Shown: positions 3,937-36,098 of the stretch, piece after piece
Layout of the letters: each line of letters opens with the position of its first letter
How positions within the stretch are numbered: the stretch's first letter is position 1
Source of the DNA: Methylobacterium terrae
GTDB lineage: Bacteria > Pseudomonadota > Alphaproteobacteria > Rhizobiales > Beijerinckiaceae
Assembly (NCBI RefSeq): GCF_003173755.1
Contig: NZ_CP029553.1
Coordinates: 397,001-461,000 of the forward strand
Direction: 5' to 3'
Length of the DNA: 64,000 bases
Made by a program: the position numbers and the translations under genes
Notes under the pieces: model-generated
Told to the model about the DNA's origin: nothing
Databases searched by the model: none
What the model saw: the letters and a program-made list of their open reading frames with translations, nothing else

Positions 3937-7686
<3,750 letters not shown>

Positions 7687-7783
7687 CGGGGTGGGGTTCC
7701 AGCGGGTCGGGCAGGTGCGGAATCGGACCGGGCCGCGCTATGCGGCCCGGGAACATGTCAGTGGTGAGGAGACCTTGGGGAAA

Positions 7784-8698
7784 TCAGGCCGCCGCCTTCT
7801 CCGCCGCCACCGGCGCCGCGCGCAAGCCCAGCAGGTGGCAGATCGCGTAGACGAGGTCGGCGCGGTTCATGGTGTAGAAGTGGAAATCGGTGACGCCGCG
7901 GTCGACGAGATCCAGCACCTGCTCGGCGGCGACCGCCGCGGCCACCAGCTTGCGGGTGGCGACGTCGTCCTCCAGCCCCTCGAAGCGGGCGGCGAGCCAG
8001 TCCGGCACCGAGGCGCCGGTGCGGCGGGCGAAGTTGGCGGCCTGCTTGAAGTTCTGCACCGGCAGGATGCCGGGGATGATCGGGATGTCGATGCCGCGCG
8101 ACTGCACCCGGTCGAGGTAGCGGAAGAACAGGTCGTTGTCGAAGAAGAACTGGGTGATGGCGCGGTCGGCGCCGCAATCGACCTTGGCCTTCAGCGCGTC
8201 GAGATCCTGGTCGAGGGAGCCGGCTTCGGGGTGGCGCTCGGGATAGGCCGAGACCGAGACCTCGAAGTCGCCGATGCGCTTGATGCCGGCGACGAGGTCG
8301 CAGGACCGTTCGTAGCCGCCCTGATGCGCCGAGTAGGCGGTGCCGACGCCCTCCGCCGGGTCGCCGCGCAGGGCCACGATGTGGCGCACGCCGGCCTCGT
8401 GGTAGGCGCGCACCACGTCGTCGACCTCAGCCTTGGTGGCCGCCACGCAGGTGAGGTGGGCGGCGGGCTTCAGGTCGGTCTCGCGCACGAGGCGAGACAC
8501 GGTGTTGTGGGTGCGCTCGCGGGTCGAGCCGCCGGCGCCGTAGGTCACCGAGACGAAGCTGGGGTTCAGCGGCGCGAGGCGCTCGATCGACGACCACAGG
8601 GTCGTCTCCATCTCGGGGGTCTTCGGGGGAAAGAACTCGAACGAGACCCGGATCGGGCGGCAGCTCTCGCGGCTCGGGCGGAAGGAGGTGGCGTACAT
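7784..8698 (-). CDS. metF: Methylenetetrahydrofolate reductase
   Basis: The 304-residue protein is of normal MetF length. It has the early SFEFFPPKTPEME motif, the FVSVTYGAGGS strand and loop, HLTCVAATKAEVD, HIVALRGDP, and ITQFFFDNDLFFRYLDR, all standard FAD and substrate-binding segments of the single-domain bacterial enzyme. It reduces 5,10-methylene-THF to 5-methyl-THF, the methyl donor for the MetH encoded next to it. The start lies 33 bases after the stop of the ArsR-methyltransferase gene, so the two are likely cotranscribed and controlled from the 20-bp palindrome upstream of that gene. Confidence 0.96.
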   Translation of the reverse strand: MYATSFRPSRESCRPIRVSFEFFPPKTPEMETTLWSSIERLAPLNPSFVSVTYGAGGSTRERTHNTVSRLVRETDLKPAAHLTCVAATKAEVDDVVRAYHEAGVRHIVALRGDPAEGVGTAYSAHQGGYERSCDLVAGIKRIGDFEVSVSAYPERHPEAGSLDQDLDALKAKVDCGADRAITQFFFDNDLFFRYLDRVQSRGIDIPIIPGILPVQNFKQAANFARRTGASVPDWLAARFEGLEDDVATRKLVAAAVAAEQVLDLVDRGVTDFHFYTMNRADLVYAICHLLGLRAAPVAAEKAAA

Positions 8699-8731
8699 CG
8701 GCGGCCTCGGGCGAAAAAGACGGTGACGGGT

Positions 8732-9733
8732 TCAGGCGACGGCGCGGTCGGGCAGGCCGATCTGTCGATCGGCAGCGGCCTGCGCGTGATGGGCGAGCCA
8801 GAGCGTGACGGTGAGCTGGTGCTCCGCGCCCCCGGAGGGCGCGAGGTGGCGCAGCCGCACGTCGGTCAGGCCGGCCTCGGAGAGCCACCCCGCGACCTGC
8901 TCCGGGGCGAAGCCGAGGCGGCGATGCGCCTCGTCCGCGCGGAGGAATTCCAGGCTGTGGGGGGCGAAATCGACGACAAGGAGGCGGCCGCCGGGGGCGA
9001 CGAGGCGGGCGGCCTCGCGCAGGGCCCGGGCCGGGTCGTCGAGGTAGTGCAGCACCTGATGGATCAGCACGAGGTCGAAGCTCGCCCGGCCGAAGGGCGG
9101 GGCGTGGATGTCGCCCTGGCGCAGGTCGACCCGGGTCAGGCCCTGGCGCTCCAGGTTGGCGCGGGCCACCGACAGCATCGCGTGGTTGGCGTCGAGTCCC
9201 GTCGCCCGGGCGGCGCGCGGCGCCAGGAGGCCGAGCATCCGGCCCGTGCCGGTGCCGAGATCGACGAGGCTGCCGATCGGATCCGTCCCGAGCGCGTCGA
9301 GCACCGCCGCCTCGACGGTGGCCTCCGGCACGTGGAGCGAGCGCACCCGGTCCCATTGCGGCGCGAGCCGGGCGAAGAAGCTCTGGGCGGCGTCGGCGCG
9401 CTGCGCCCGCACCGCCTGGAGCCGGGCGCGGTCCTCGGAGAGCGGCGGCTCGGCGGCGTCGAGCGCGGCGATGAGCGGCGCCACCAGCCCGGACGCGCCC
9501 TCGCGCAGGCGGAAGAACGCCCAGGCGCCCTCGCGGTGGCGCACCACCAGCCCGGCCTCGACCAGGAGCTTGAGGTGCCGGGAGATCCGCGGCTGCGACT
9601 GGCCCAGGATGTCGGTGAGATCGGAGACCGACAGCTCGCCGTCGCCGAGCAGCACCAGGATGCGCAACCGCGTCTCCTCCGCGGCGGCCCGCAGCACGCC
9701 CAGGGCGTCGGCGAAGGGGACGGTGGCGGTCAT
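8732..9733 (-). CDS. ArsR-family regulator fused to a SAM-binding methyltransferase-like domain (SahR-like)
   Basis: The protein has 333 residues. Residues about 5-95 form an ArsR winged helix-turn-helix (EETRLRILVLLGDGELSVSD, then DILGQSQPRISRHLKLLVEAGLV). Residues about 140-300 form a class I methyltransferase fold with the SAM loop LVDLGTGTGRMLGLL, acidic strand end GLDANHAML and LRQGDIHAPPF. Proteins with this layout next to methionine-cycle genes include SahR, a proteobacterial repressor that senses S-adenosylhomocysteine. That role is inferred here from architecture, from the metF-metH neighbours and from the palindrome 30 bases upstream of the start, which suggests autoregulation. The canonical metal-sensing cysteines of arsenic-type ArsR are absent. 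It could instead be an active methyltransferase; the domain looks intact. Confidence 0.85.
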   Translation of the reverse strand: MTATVPFADALGVLRAAAEETRLRILVLLGDGELSVSDLTDILGQSQPRISRHLKLLVEAGLVVRHREGAWAFFRLREGASGLVAPLIAALDAAEPPLSEDRARLQAVRAQRADAAQSFFARLAPQWDRVRSLHVPEATVEAAVLDALGTDPIGSLVDLGTGTGRMLGLLAPRAARATGLDANHAMLSVARANLERQGLTRVDLRQGDIHAPPFGRASFDLVLIHQVLHYLDDPARALREAARLVAPGGRLLVVDFAPHSLEFLRADEAHRRLGFAPEQVAGWLSEAGLTDVRLRHLAPSGGAEHQLTVTLWLAHHAQAAADRQIGLPDRAVA

Positions 9734-9762
9734 TCCGGGGTGCTCCTCGCCTCCAATACGAA

Positions 9763-9782
9763 ACATAAAGATATCTTTATGT
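9763..9782. promoter_or_regulatory. Perfect 20-bp palindromic operator upstream of the sahR-like, metF, metH unit
   Basis: ACATAAAGATATCTTTATGT is a perfect palindrome, strikingly A/T rich in a 70% GC context. It lies 30 bases upstream of the ATG of the ArsR-methyltransferase gene. Symmetric sites of this size with an A/T-rich centre are typical for ArsR dimers. It is the only such element found upstream of this operon, and no SAM or SAH riboswitch-like structure was recognised. Repression of the operon by its own first product is the simplest reading. The plus-strand topoisomerase gene starts about 260 bases away and may not be affected. Confidence 0.8.
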
Positions 9783-9905
9783 GAGGAATACGGAGGGCGC
9801 AAGCGGCGTTTCGTGGGCGGGATCGTGGCAGGGCGGGTGGATTGACCGGGATGGCGGCGGGACGGTGTCCGTCGGGCCGACAGGGCGAGGTAGGCGCGGG
9901 TCGTC

Positions 9906-31746: not shown

Positions 31747-31942
31747 TATCCTGCAAATCGCACAGGCAGGTTCCTAGACCTCACAACCTCCCTTGTCCGC
31801 CGATCGCGGCTGTGCTTAGCCAGCTTACAACAAGCGCCCCGCCGCCGTATGACGGCGCGGGCCGCGTGCCCCCGGCGTCCCTGTCGTCGGAGTGTCACGC
31901 CGGCCCCGCATGAGGGGCCGCACACGAGGAGACGACACCCCG

Positions 31943-33262
31943 ATGGCCCCCACCACGACCCTCCGCATCGCGCTCGCCGGCCTCGGCCTGGCCGTGGCGG
32001 CAACCCCGGCGCTCGCCGTGACCGAGCTGCAATGGTGGCACGCGATGACGGGCGCCAACAACGACGCGGTCAACCGCCTCGCCGACGAGTTCAACGCCGC
32101 GCAGAGCGACTACAAGGTGGTGCCGACCTACAAGGGCAATTACGGCGAGACGCTGAATGCCGGCATCGCGGCCTTCCGCGCCGGCACCGCGCCGCACATC
32201 ATGCAGGTGTTCGAGGTCGGCACCGCCACGATGATGTCGGCCAAGGGCGCGGTGAAGCCCGTCTACCAGCTGATGAAGGATGCCGGCGAGCCGTTCGACC
32301 CGAACGCCTACCTGCCGGCGATCACCGGCTACTACTCGACGACCAAGGGCGAGATGCTCTCGTTCCCGTTCAACTCGTCGTCGATGGTGATGTGGGCCAA
32401 CCTCGACGCCCTGAAGGCGATCGGCCTCTCCGAGCCGCCGAAGACATGGCCGGACCTGTTCGCGGCGGCCAAGAAGCTGACGCAGAACGGCTTCCCGAAT
32501 TGCGGCTTCTCGACCACCTGGGTCACCTGGCTCAACATCGAGCAGCTCTCGGCCTGGCACAACCTGCCGGTGGCCACCAAGGCCAACGGCATGGACGGCC
32601 TCGACACCACGCTCGAGATCAACGGCCCGCTGCAGGTCAGGCACATCGGCAACCTGGCCGAGGCGCAGAAGGACAAGTCCTTCGACTATTCCGGCCGCTA
32701 CGACAGCGGCTTCGGCCGCTTCACCGCCGGCGAGTGCCCGATCATGTTCGGCTCGTCCGGCTCCTACGGCAACGTCAAGGGTGCGGCGAAGTTCGCCTGG
32801 GCCTCGGCGCCGATGCCCTACTATCCCGACGTGCCGGGCGCGCCGCAGAACAGCATCATCGGCGGCGCCTCCCTGTGGGTGATGGGCGGCAAGAAGCCCG
32901 ACGAGTACAAGGGCGTGGCGAAGTTCTTCACCTTCCTGTCGGACACCGACCGGCAAGCGAAGCTCCACCAGACCACCGGCTACATGCCGATCACCAAGGC
33001 GGCCTACGAGAAGTCCAAGGCGGACGGCTTCTACGACAAGAACCCGGCCCTCGAGACGCCGATCAAGGAGCTGACCAACAAGCCGCCGACCGAGAATTCC
33101 CGGGGCTTGCGCCTCGGCAACCTGCCGCAGATGCGCGACCTGTGGGCCGAGGAGATCGAGGCGACGCTGGCCGGCAAGAAGACGGCGAAGCAGGCCCTCG
33201 ACGAGGCGGCGACCCGCGGCAACGCGATGCTGCGCCAGTTCGAGAAGCAGGCCGGACGGTAA
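31943..33262 (+). CDS. ugpB: ABC transporter substrate-binding protein, sn-glycerol-3-phosphate type
   Basis: The 439-residue protein has a signal peptide ([21 protein letters not shown]) and a mature part starting [20 protein letters not shown], the hallmark opening of UgpB, then [39 protein letters not shown], a [13 protein letters not shown] segment and the family C terminus. It is a periplasmic binding protein for glycerol-3-phosphate or related glycerophospho compounds. The ATG at 31943 has GAGGAG about 11 bases upstream. It is followed by ugpA after four bases. No PHO-box-like repeat was recognised upstream. Confidence 0.93.
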
Positions 33263-33266
33263 CATC

Positions 33267-34151
33267 ATGGGGCCCGAGCGCATCACCTTCGGAGGCCGGC
33301 TGCTGCCGGCGGCGCTGATCGCGCCGCAGCTCCTCATCGTCGGCCTGTTCTTCTACTGGCCGGCGGTGCAGGCGGTCTGGCAGTCGTTCCAGATGCAGGA
33401 CGCGTTCGGGCTCTCGACCGAGTTCGTCTGGTTCGAGAATTACCGGGCCCTGTTCACGGACCCGGCCTACTACCAGGCCCTCGTCACCACGCTGGTCTTC
33501 GCGGCGGCGGTGGCGGGGCTTTCCTTGGGCTTCGCGCTGCTGCTCGCCGTGATGGCGGACCGGGAGATCCGGGGCTCCGGCATCTACCGGACCCTGCTGA
33601 TCTGGCCCTACGCGGTGGCGCCGGCGGTGGCGGGCGTGCTGTTCGGCTTCCTGTTCCAGCCCGGCCTCGGCCTGATCGCCCGCGGGCTCAACCAGATCGG
33701 CATCCCGTGGAACCCGCTCCTCGACGGGAACCACGCCATGATCCTCGTGGTGATGGCGGCGGCCTGGAAGCAGGTCTCCTACAACTTCCTGTTCTTCCTC
33801 GCCGGCCTGCAGGCGATCCCGGGCAGCGTGATCGAGGCGGCGGCGATCGACGGCGCCGGCCCGGCGCGGCGGTTCTGGACCATCGTCTTCCCGCTGCTGT
33901 CGCCGACCACGTTCTTCCTGATGGTGGTCAACGTCGTCTACGCCTTCTGCGAGACGTTCGGCGTCATCGACGTGCTCACCCATGGCGGTCCGGGCCGGGC
34001 GACGCAGACCCTCGTCTACAAGGTCTACCAGGACGGCCGCATCGGCGCCGACCTCGGCGGCTCGGCGGCGCAGTCGGTGGTGCTGATGGCGATCGTGATC
34101 GGGCTGACGGCGATCCAGTTCCGCTACGTCGAGAAGCGGGTGGCGTATTGA
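33267..34151 (+). CDS. ugpA: ABC transporter permease, sn-glycerol-3-phosphate type
   Basis: The 294-residue permease has six membrane helices and the EAA loop [20 protein letters not shown]. The opening [20 protein letters not shown] and the C-terminal [20 protein letters not shown] fit UgpA. The start is an ATG four bases after the ugpB stop. In the usual operon ugpE and ugpC follow directly; here they lie 7 kb upstream, and the next gene is a flagellin. Confidence 0.92.
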
Positions 34152-34352: not shown

Positions 34353-36098
34353 ATGGCCAGCCTGCTGACGAACGTCGCCGCTCTCGCGGCGCTGACGACG
34401 CTGAAGGGCGTGAACACACGGCTCGACGCGGTCAGCCATCGCGTTTCGACCGGTCGACGCGTGTCCTCGGCCGCCGACAACGCCGCCTACTGGGCGATCG
34501 CCACCGCCGTGCGCACCGACAATTCGTCGCTCTCGGCGCTGAAGGACACGCTGGGTCTCGGCGCCTCGGCGGTGGATGTCGCCTATAACGGTCTCAGCGC
34601 GGTGCTCGGCGATCTGCAGAGCCTGCGCGCCAAGCTGCAGACCGCCCTGGCTCCCGGCATCGACCGCGCCAAGATCCAGGTCGAGATCGCTGCCCTGCAG
34701 GAGCGGATGAAGGCCACCGCCAGCGCCTCGAACGCGTCGGGACAGAACTGGCTCTCGGTGGATTCGACCGATCCGCTCGGCTACCGCCCGGTGCGCGACT
34801 ACGCCTCCGGCTTCTCGCGCAACGCCGCAGGCGGGATCGAGATGACCTACGCGTCGATTCCCGTCGCCGACATCGCGCTCTACAATGCCGGCGCCACCCG
34901 CACGACCGCGCCGGCGACTCCGGCGCGGGTCACCGCCGATTCCGCCTTGACCGGCGGCGTCGACTTCGGCGGCCCCCAGGACGTGCGCTTCACCGTGAGC
35001 CTCGACGGTTCGCCGGGGCGGGACCTCGTCCTGAACGGGACGACGCTGGCCGCGATCGCGGCGAACCTCGCGGGGGTCACCGCACAGGAACTGGTGCGCG
35101 CCCTCAACGTCCAGATCGCGGCCGATCCCGCGCTCGCCAGCGGCCTTCGGGCGGGTCTCGACGGTCAGGGCCTTCTGTACTTCGAGACCACGGCGACGGG
35201 TGCGGCCCGCAGTCTCGTGATCGACCGGACGAGCAGCGGGACGACCGTCGCCGGCGTGAACCTGCTCGCCAACAGCGGCTTCGAGAGCGGCCTGACGGAC
35301 TGGTCGCTCACGGGCGACCTCAGCTACAGCGGCGTTCGAACGGACCGCGCCCATACCGGCAGCAACAGCATCGCCTTCGGCACGGTCAACGGAACGTCGC
35401 GCCTGGCGCAGGCCATCGCGACGGTGCCGGGACAGAGCTACCAGCTGGAGTTCTGGCTCCAGACCCCGGGCGGCGTTCCATCCAACTTCCTGGCGACGTG
35501 GGACGGAACGCCCGTGCTCGCGCTCGCCGATACGCCCTCGCAGCCTTTCACCCGCTACGCCTTCACGGTGACCGCGAGCGGATCCAGCACGACGCTCGCC
35601 TTCGAGGCGCGGCACGTCCCGAGCTACTGGTTCCTCGACGACGTCGCGGTCACTGCGACGCCGACCGGCCCCCCGCTCGGCTTCGGCAGCGCCGGGATCA
35701 CTCGCGCCTCCGGTCACGGCTCGGCCGCCACGACCGCCAACGGCGGCATCCTCGACGCTGTCGACGCCCGGACCGGGACCGCGATCGCATCCCTGACCAT
35801 CACCGGGCTCGGCGATCCTGCCATCGCGGCCCTGGTGGACCAGGTCGACGGCGCGATCGCCCGCGTCACGGATGCCGGCACCCGGCTCGGGGCCAGCAAG
35901 ACCCTGATCGCCGGCCAGACCACCTTCCTCGACACCCTGATCAAGACCAATGCCCGGACCATCGGCATCCTGGTGGATGCCGACATCGAGCTGGAGACGA
36001 CGCGGGTCAAGGCGCTCCAGACGCAGCAGCAGCTCGCGCTGCAGGCGCTCTCCATCGCCAACGCCTCGAACAGCACCGTGCTCAGCCTGTTCCGATAG
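34353..36098 (+). CDS. Flagellin with an inserted carbohydrate-binding-like beta-sandwich domain
   Basis: The 581-residue protein has flagellin D0/D1 ends. Residues 1-140 include LKGVNTRLDAVSHRVSTGRR, SSAADNAAYWAIATAVRTDN and a helical continuation; residues 465-581 end with LETTRVKALQTQQQLALQAL and IANASNSTVLSLFR. These pack as the filament core. Residues about 205-292 look like the flagellin variable repeat (LNGTTLAAIAANLAGVTAQE). Residues about 303-436 are a separate domain: LLANSGFESGLTDWSLTGDL, AHTGSNSIAFG, PGQSYQLEFWLQTPGGVPSN and YWFLDDVAVTA. This is the pattern of CBM4/9-like or galactose-binding-like modules of exported proteins. It would be displayed on the filament surface. No other flagellar gene is near. 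The gene is a little less GC biased than its neighbours. The start has no strong ribosome site, but the N terminus aligns well. Confidence 0.88.
   Translation: MASLLTNVAALAALTTLKGVNTRLDAVSHRVSTGRRVSSAADNAAYWAIATAVRTDNSSLSALKDTLGLGASAVDVAYNGLSAVLGDLQSLRAKLQTALAPGIDRAKIQVEIAALQERMKATASASNASGQNWLSVDSTDPLGYRPVRDYASGFSRNAAGGIEMTYASIPVADIALYNAGATRTTAPATPARVTADSALTGGVDFGGPQDVRFTVSLDGSPGRDLVLNGTTLAAIAANLAGVTAQELVRALNVQIAADPALASGLRAGLDGQGLLYFETTATGAARSLVIDRTSSGTTVAGVNLLANSGFESGLTDWSLTGDLSYSGVRTDRAHTGSNSIAFGTVNGTSRLAQAIATVPGQSYQLEFWLQTPGGVPSNFLATWDGTPVLALADTPSQPFTRYAFTVTASGSSTTLAFEARHVPSYWFLDDVAVTATPTGPPLGFGSAGITRASGHGSAATTANGGILDAVDARTGTAIASLTITGLGDPAIAALVDQVDGAIARVTDAGTRLGASKTLIAGQTTFLDTLIKTNARTIGILVDADIELETTRVKALQTQQQLALQALSIANASNSTVLSLFR

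Follow-up and report, generated by a model that had tools for sequence, protein, structure and literature searches.

Why does a flagellin gene of Methylobacterium terrae, standing apart from other flagellar genes, carry between its two flagellin ends a folded domain that resembles carbohydrate-binding modules (CBMs), and what might such a domain do on a filament? The gene lies in a stretch of 64,000 nucleotides (contig NZ_CP029553.1, positions 397,001 to 461,000, assembly GCF_003173755.1), which we call the window. Both the module and its insertion into the flagellin are real; a specialised minor flagellin that shows a glycan-binding fold on the filament is the best reading of them, held at even confidence. 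The gene is laid out as follows.

34353..36098, forward strand: flagellin gene with inserted CBM-like module, 581 amino acids
34368..34757, forward strand: Flagellin_N core, residues 6-135 (Pfam PF00669, E 5e-19)
34770..35258, forward strand: ordinary outer (D2-like) part ahead of the insert, common to insertless flagellins (alignments)
35259..35660, forward strand: inserted beta-sandwich module, residues 303-436, CBM_4_9-like (profile, model and family matches)
35661..35837, forward strand: return into the ordinary outer part, with an LGFG motif starting at residue 442 (alignments)
35838..36092, forward strand: Flagellin_C core, residues 496-580 (Pfam PF00700, E 7e-12)

The open frame is intact, residue 303 starting at 35259 and residue 436 ending at 35660. 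Flagellin_N and Flagellin_C both exceed their Pfam cut-offs, so that the two ends of a bacterial flagellin are present, as the first-pass annotation had held with correct coordinates. The whole protein contains no HExxH zinc-peptidase motif, which rules out a metallopeptidase reading of the insert, and no PEP-CTERM match was found in it with Pfam at E up to 1; its C-terminus is that of a flagellin.

The same annotation had placed a separate CBM4/9-like module in the outer part of the protein, at residues 303-436, and structure prediction bears this out. An AlphaFold2 model of these residues is a beta-sandwich with structural matches to CBM61, CBM16 and CBM4 modules; in this predicted model the match to the CBM4/16/61-type fold spans the whole module, the structural alignments giving an identity of about 16-22%. 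An ordinary D2/D3 domain, the alternative that the annotation itself had named, is ruled out by the fold of a control, a flagellin of the same genome (L002) modelled likewise (mean pLDDT 78.6), in which a different filler, of strands mixed with helices, lies at the place of the insert. All 44 Foldseek matches of the control in the PDB at E 0.001 or better are flagellar proteins, as are all 50 rows listed for it and, separately, its 50 VIA rows; none of these is a CBM.

Sequence profiles point the same way. A profile of ten sequences, run against PDB sequences, reached TmCBM61 at E 5.9e-7 and CBM16 at about 0.001, while a profile of five inserts, run against 5.8 billion proteins, gave 4158 candidates and 300 matches at E 0.001 or better, the best at E 1.6e-36; this second search admitted only proteins of ~77-245 residues and is therefore silent on long ones. 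Because that profile reaches so low a value, and because six genomes hold the module between flagellin ends, the similarity is not a product of chance. Among the best 120 of the 300 matches, the closest relatives are secreted proteins of ~190 amino acids that are 32-46% identical to the window module, and about 52 of the 120 carry a PEP-CTERM motif by hand count. Three small secreted CBM_4_9-type proteins (P0007, P0045 and P0078) are named 'flagellin' at JGI, a label perhaps carried over from the insert-bearing flagellins.

Both flanks of the module are common to ordinary Methylobacterium flagellins in alignments, and the insertion can be undone on paper. When residues 303-441 were cut from the window protein and the remainder was re-aligned to ten chosen ordinary flagellins, the alignment score rose against all seven that lack a filler (L015, L071, L021, L019, L026, L020 and L029) and fell against the three that hold another filler (L001, L002 and L014). 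Since all seven filler-less flagellins align better after the cut, the insertion is clean, and it follows from the same comparison that the point just ahead of the GFG motif is a tolerated insertion site.

The module occurs in six of 111 Methylobacterium genomes, each with both flagellin ends matched inside the same 2.7-3.4 kb, and Flagellin_C in 110 of them; an insert universal in plain flagellins, which the annotation had also set against its own claim, is thus ruled out. The frame is complete and open in four carriers, open but cut at the contig end in G101, and in a gapped assembly in Methylobacterium sp. Leaf108 (G058). The other named carriers are M. tarhaniae, which comes from soil, and M. 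symbioticum, which comes from fungal spores; a first protein search recovered only three module-bearing flagellins and missed those of these two species. In a scan of the order (397 genomes, up to 10 candidates scored in each), 20 genomes besides the window's own match the module (E from 1.3e-14 down). None of 19 loci from these 20 genomes shows flagellin ends, and no flagellin with the module was seen outside Methylobacterium among the matches listed; two of the three best matches (L090 and L092) are long repetitive proteins, apparently extracellular.

A tree of the flagellin core was built from 50 sequences, without the copies of Leaf108 and G101; it groups six carriers with L015 of M. crusticola, which lacks the insert, at a support of 99, and the carriers by themselves at 65. 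In a tree of the domain that includes small secreted relatives, seven inserts fall together (69) and are joined next (99) by P0012, a protein of 198 residues with a PEP-CTERM match below cut-off. A single capture of the module is the simplest reading. The two trees differ over M. tarhaniae, which the core tree nests within the window's group (95) and the domain tree puts outside the other six (100), so that exchange is possible.

We propose that a small secreted protein of CBM_4_9 fold gave its only domain, probably on one occasion, to a Methylobacterium flagellin gene, and that the point of capture was a tolerant site of the flagellin outer domain. The product would be exported and take its place in the filament as a minor component next to the two major flagellins; provided that it is assembled, the filament would display the module because of its outer-domain position. 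Repeated along the filament, the module may bind extracellular polysaccharide for adhesion, with plant wall, fungal or self-made exopolysaccharide as candidate ligands. Whether the module binds glycan at all we consider about evenly balanced. The fuller proposal, that the filament amounts to a multivalent lectin-like fibre built from the CBM of a captured exoprotein and acts as a long polysaccharide-binding tether for the swimming cell, perhaps with galactan- or arabinan-type specificity as in the proteins that hold the closest structural matches, is more tentative, and somewhat likelier to be wrong than right.

Several observations weigh against a glycan-binding flagellin, among them the accelerated core and the missing leader described further below. 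The search of residues 303-436 against Pfam did match CBM_4_9 (PF02018), more strongly than it matched DUF642, but the window module scores 22.9 bits as a domain alone and 19.2 in the whole protein, short of the curated cut-off of 25.9; the other three of the four carriers scanned pass it (P0003 at 32.9, P0005 at 27.6 and P0006 at 30.9). P0002 has no precomputed CBM_4_9 annotation, and the NCBIfam matches of the window protein, to choice_anch_C and NTTRR-F1, are sub-threshold. The predicted fold also matches meprin and gingipain adhesin domains, which have no CBM role, as well as C-terminal parts of other large proteins. Only 44 of 120 relatives have a tryptophan at the position of W426, so that there is no family-wide platform at this residue, and the CBM16-like domain of the alginate lyase AlyQ has no carbohydrate binding reported in the part of its description that bears on it (PMC5651945).

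In a first alternative the module is a mere spacer or stiffener of the filament surface, outer domains being freely exchanged and tuning stiffness or inter-subunit contacts without any ligand. This is the strongest of the alternatives, and we judge it unlikely rather than remote: the genome's own sibling flagellins hold another filler at the insert site, seven ordinary flagellins out of the ten compared hold nothing there, and outer-domain dimerisation is described as modulating motility in other bacteria (PMC8931119). Weighing against it are the module's membership in a family of secreted CBM_4_9-type proteins and a set of aromatic and acidic residues, some perhaps simply structural, that its seven flagellin-borne copies conserve.

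The surroundings of the gene bear on a different alternative, that of a copy in decay, or newly recruited, which seldom or never enters the filament. The gene is indeed isolated from other flagellar genes, as had been claimed: nine of the ten neighbours scanned fall in non-flagellar families (ABC ATPase, CoA-transferase, TPP enzyme, solute-binding protein, permease, MdoG, decarboxylase, GNAT and TetR), one small neighbour has no family, and an AMP-binding enzyme lies further out. The two major flagellins are about 1.8 Mb off in contig coordinates, and the nearest other Flagellin_N match, a weak one, is at about 0.53 Mb. Directly ahead of the flagellin (31892-34151) lie genes for a solute-binding protein and for a single ABC permease, with about 200 bases between the permease and the flagellin start; no second permease is found among the genes scanned after it. 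When the window stretch was compared with each of the five other carrier stretches (two of them short), rather than these among themselves, only the flagellin and frames overlapping it matched at E 1e-20.

To this orphan position is added a faster core. Of 38 ordinary flagellins, at least 97% agree at 138 core positions, a count from which L059 and the second genes of L023 and L027 were dropped as divergent or gapped; carriers depart at 11-21 of these positions, against a leave-one-out median of 1 and maximum of 13 for ordinary flagellins. Some of these changes are common to the carriers compared (position 523 in all six, S125A in five and K551R in five), which suggests specialisation. A structured leader lies ahead of both major flagellins of the window genome (150 candidates scored), and the insert-bearing gene has no match to it at E 0.01 or better in the window, M. 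tarhaniae, M. symbioticum or G037; yet seven of 21 ordinary Methylobacterium loci (L010, L011, L016, L018, L034, L059 and L071) also have no match, so its absence is not peculiar to carriers. The insert-bearing gene of Leaf108 does have a leader match, at a locus that holds flagellar hook genes. Patterns for sigma-28 and sigma-54 sites matched nothing ahead of the gene in the four carriers examined and a bare half-site at one ordinary gene, the patterns being simple ones that offer little proof. With core changes shared among carriers, with the leader missing from some ordinary loci too, and with the frame kept open in four of the six carriers and in G101 up to its contig end, we regard decay or recent recruitment as improbable. 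That the protein is instead a cell-surface polysaccharide receptor and no filament subunit, by analogy with P5 of Sphingomonas sp. A1, seems to us most improbable.

The leader RNA is of interest in itself. It stands about 40-170 bases ahead of 14 of the 21 ordinary Methylobacterium flagellin loci, five of which built the model, and its coordinates in the window genome are G000:C1:2246931-2247060 (L001 1317-1446) and 2249240-2249372 (L002 1314-1446); it is further found at L013 5830-5963, L014 5823-5955 and other loci. The predicted structure has two CCGG-N7-CCGG hairpins, a GACA-TGTC hairpin and a long-range stem, and seven of 21 predicted pairs have changed on both sides among 16 sequences. 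Short forms occur ahead of Afifella flagellins (L046 and L058), and matches were found in nine of 199 genomes of the order under stricter filters. Rfam 15 gave no family at gathering score in 12 loci and nothing convincing in two closer looks, while its flg-Rhizobiales family has a below-cut-off score elsewhere in the window genome. In Leaf108 the module flagellin lies near hook-type genes around 7500-9850 (L012 and L111), among assembly gaps and repeated starts.

If the module of this specialised minor flagellin does bind glycans, it would be a natural case of a flagellum made into a sugar-binding fibre through domain capture. The insertless sister genes would be ready controls for asking whether outer flagellin domains give ligand-specific adhesion, and the insertion point a natural site at which filaments could be made to display binding domains.

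Flagellins with inserted domains are already known, and a CBM-type insert appears to be new. Eckhard et al. (2017) describe 61 kinds of domain within the hypervariable regions of flagellins; sialidase and vWFA are among the ten commonest in their main table, and no CBM is (PMC5595980). A literature search at the level of titles and listings, with the supplementary list of that paper outside its scope, found no paper on a CBM-bearing flagellin. Flagellinolysins and other hypervariable-region insertions likewise place a foreign folded domain between the N and C cores (PMC5595980), but the fold here is of CBM type, not a peptidase, and HExxH is absent. Polysaccharide binding by a flagellin homologue is also reported for P5 of Sphingomonas sp. 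A1, with alginate as ligand; the review that describes it, in the part that concerns it, proposes binding as a general property of flagellins and names no inserted module (PMC8286568). In the small secreted CBM_4_9 proteins the same domain stands by itself, in many cases followed by a sorting motif at the C-terminus, rather than inside a flagellin. TmCBM61, which binds galactan, and the CBM16 and CBM4 modules resemble the insert in predicted fold, CBM61 and CBM16 also in profile; where the structures are aligned, the identity is about 16-22%.
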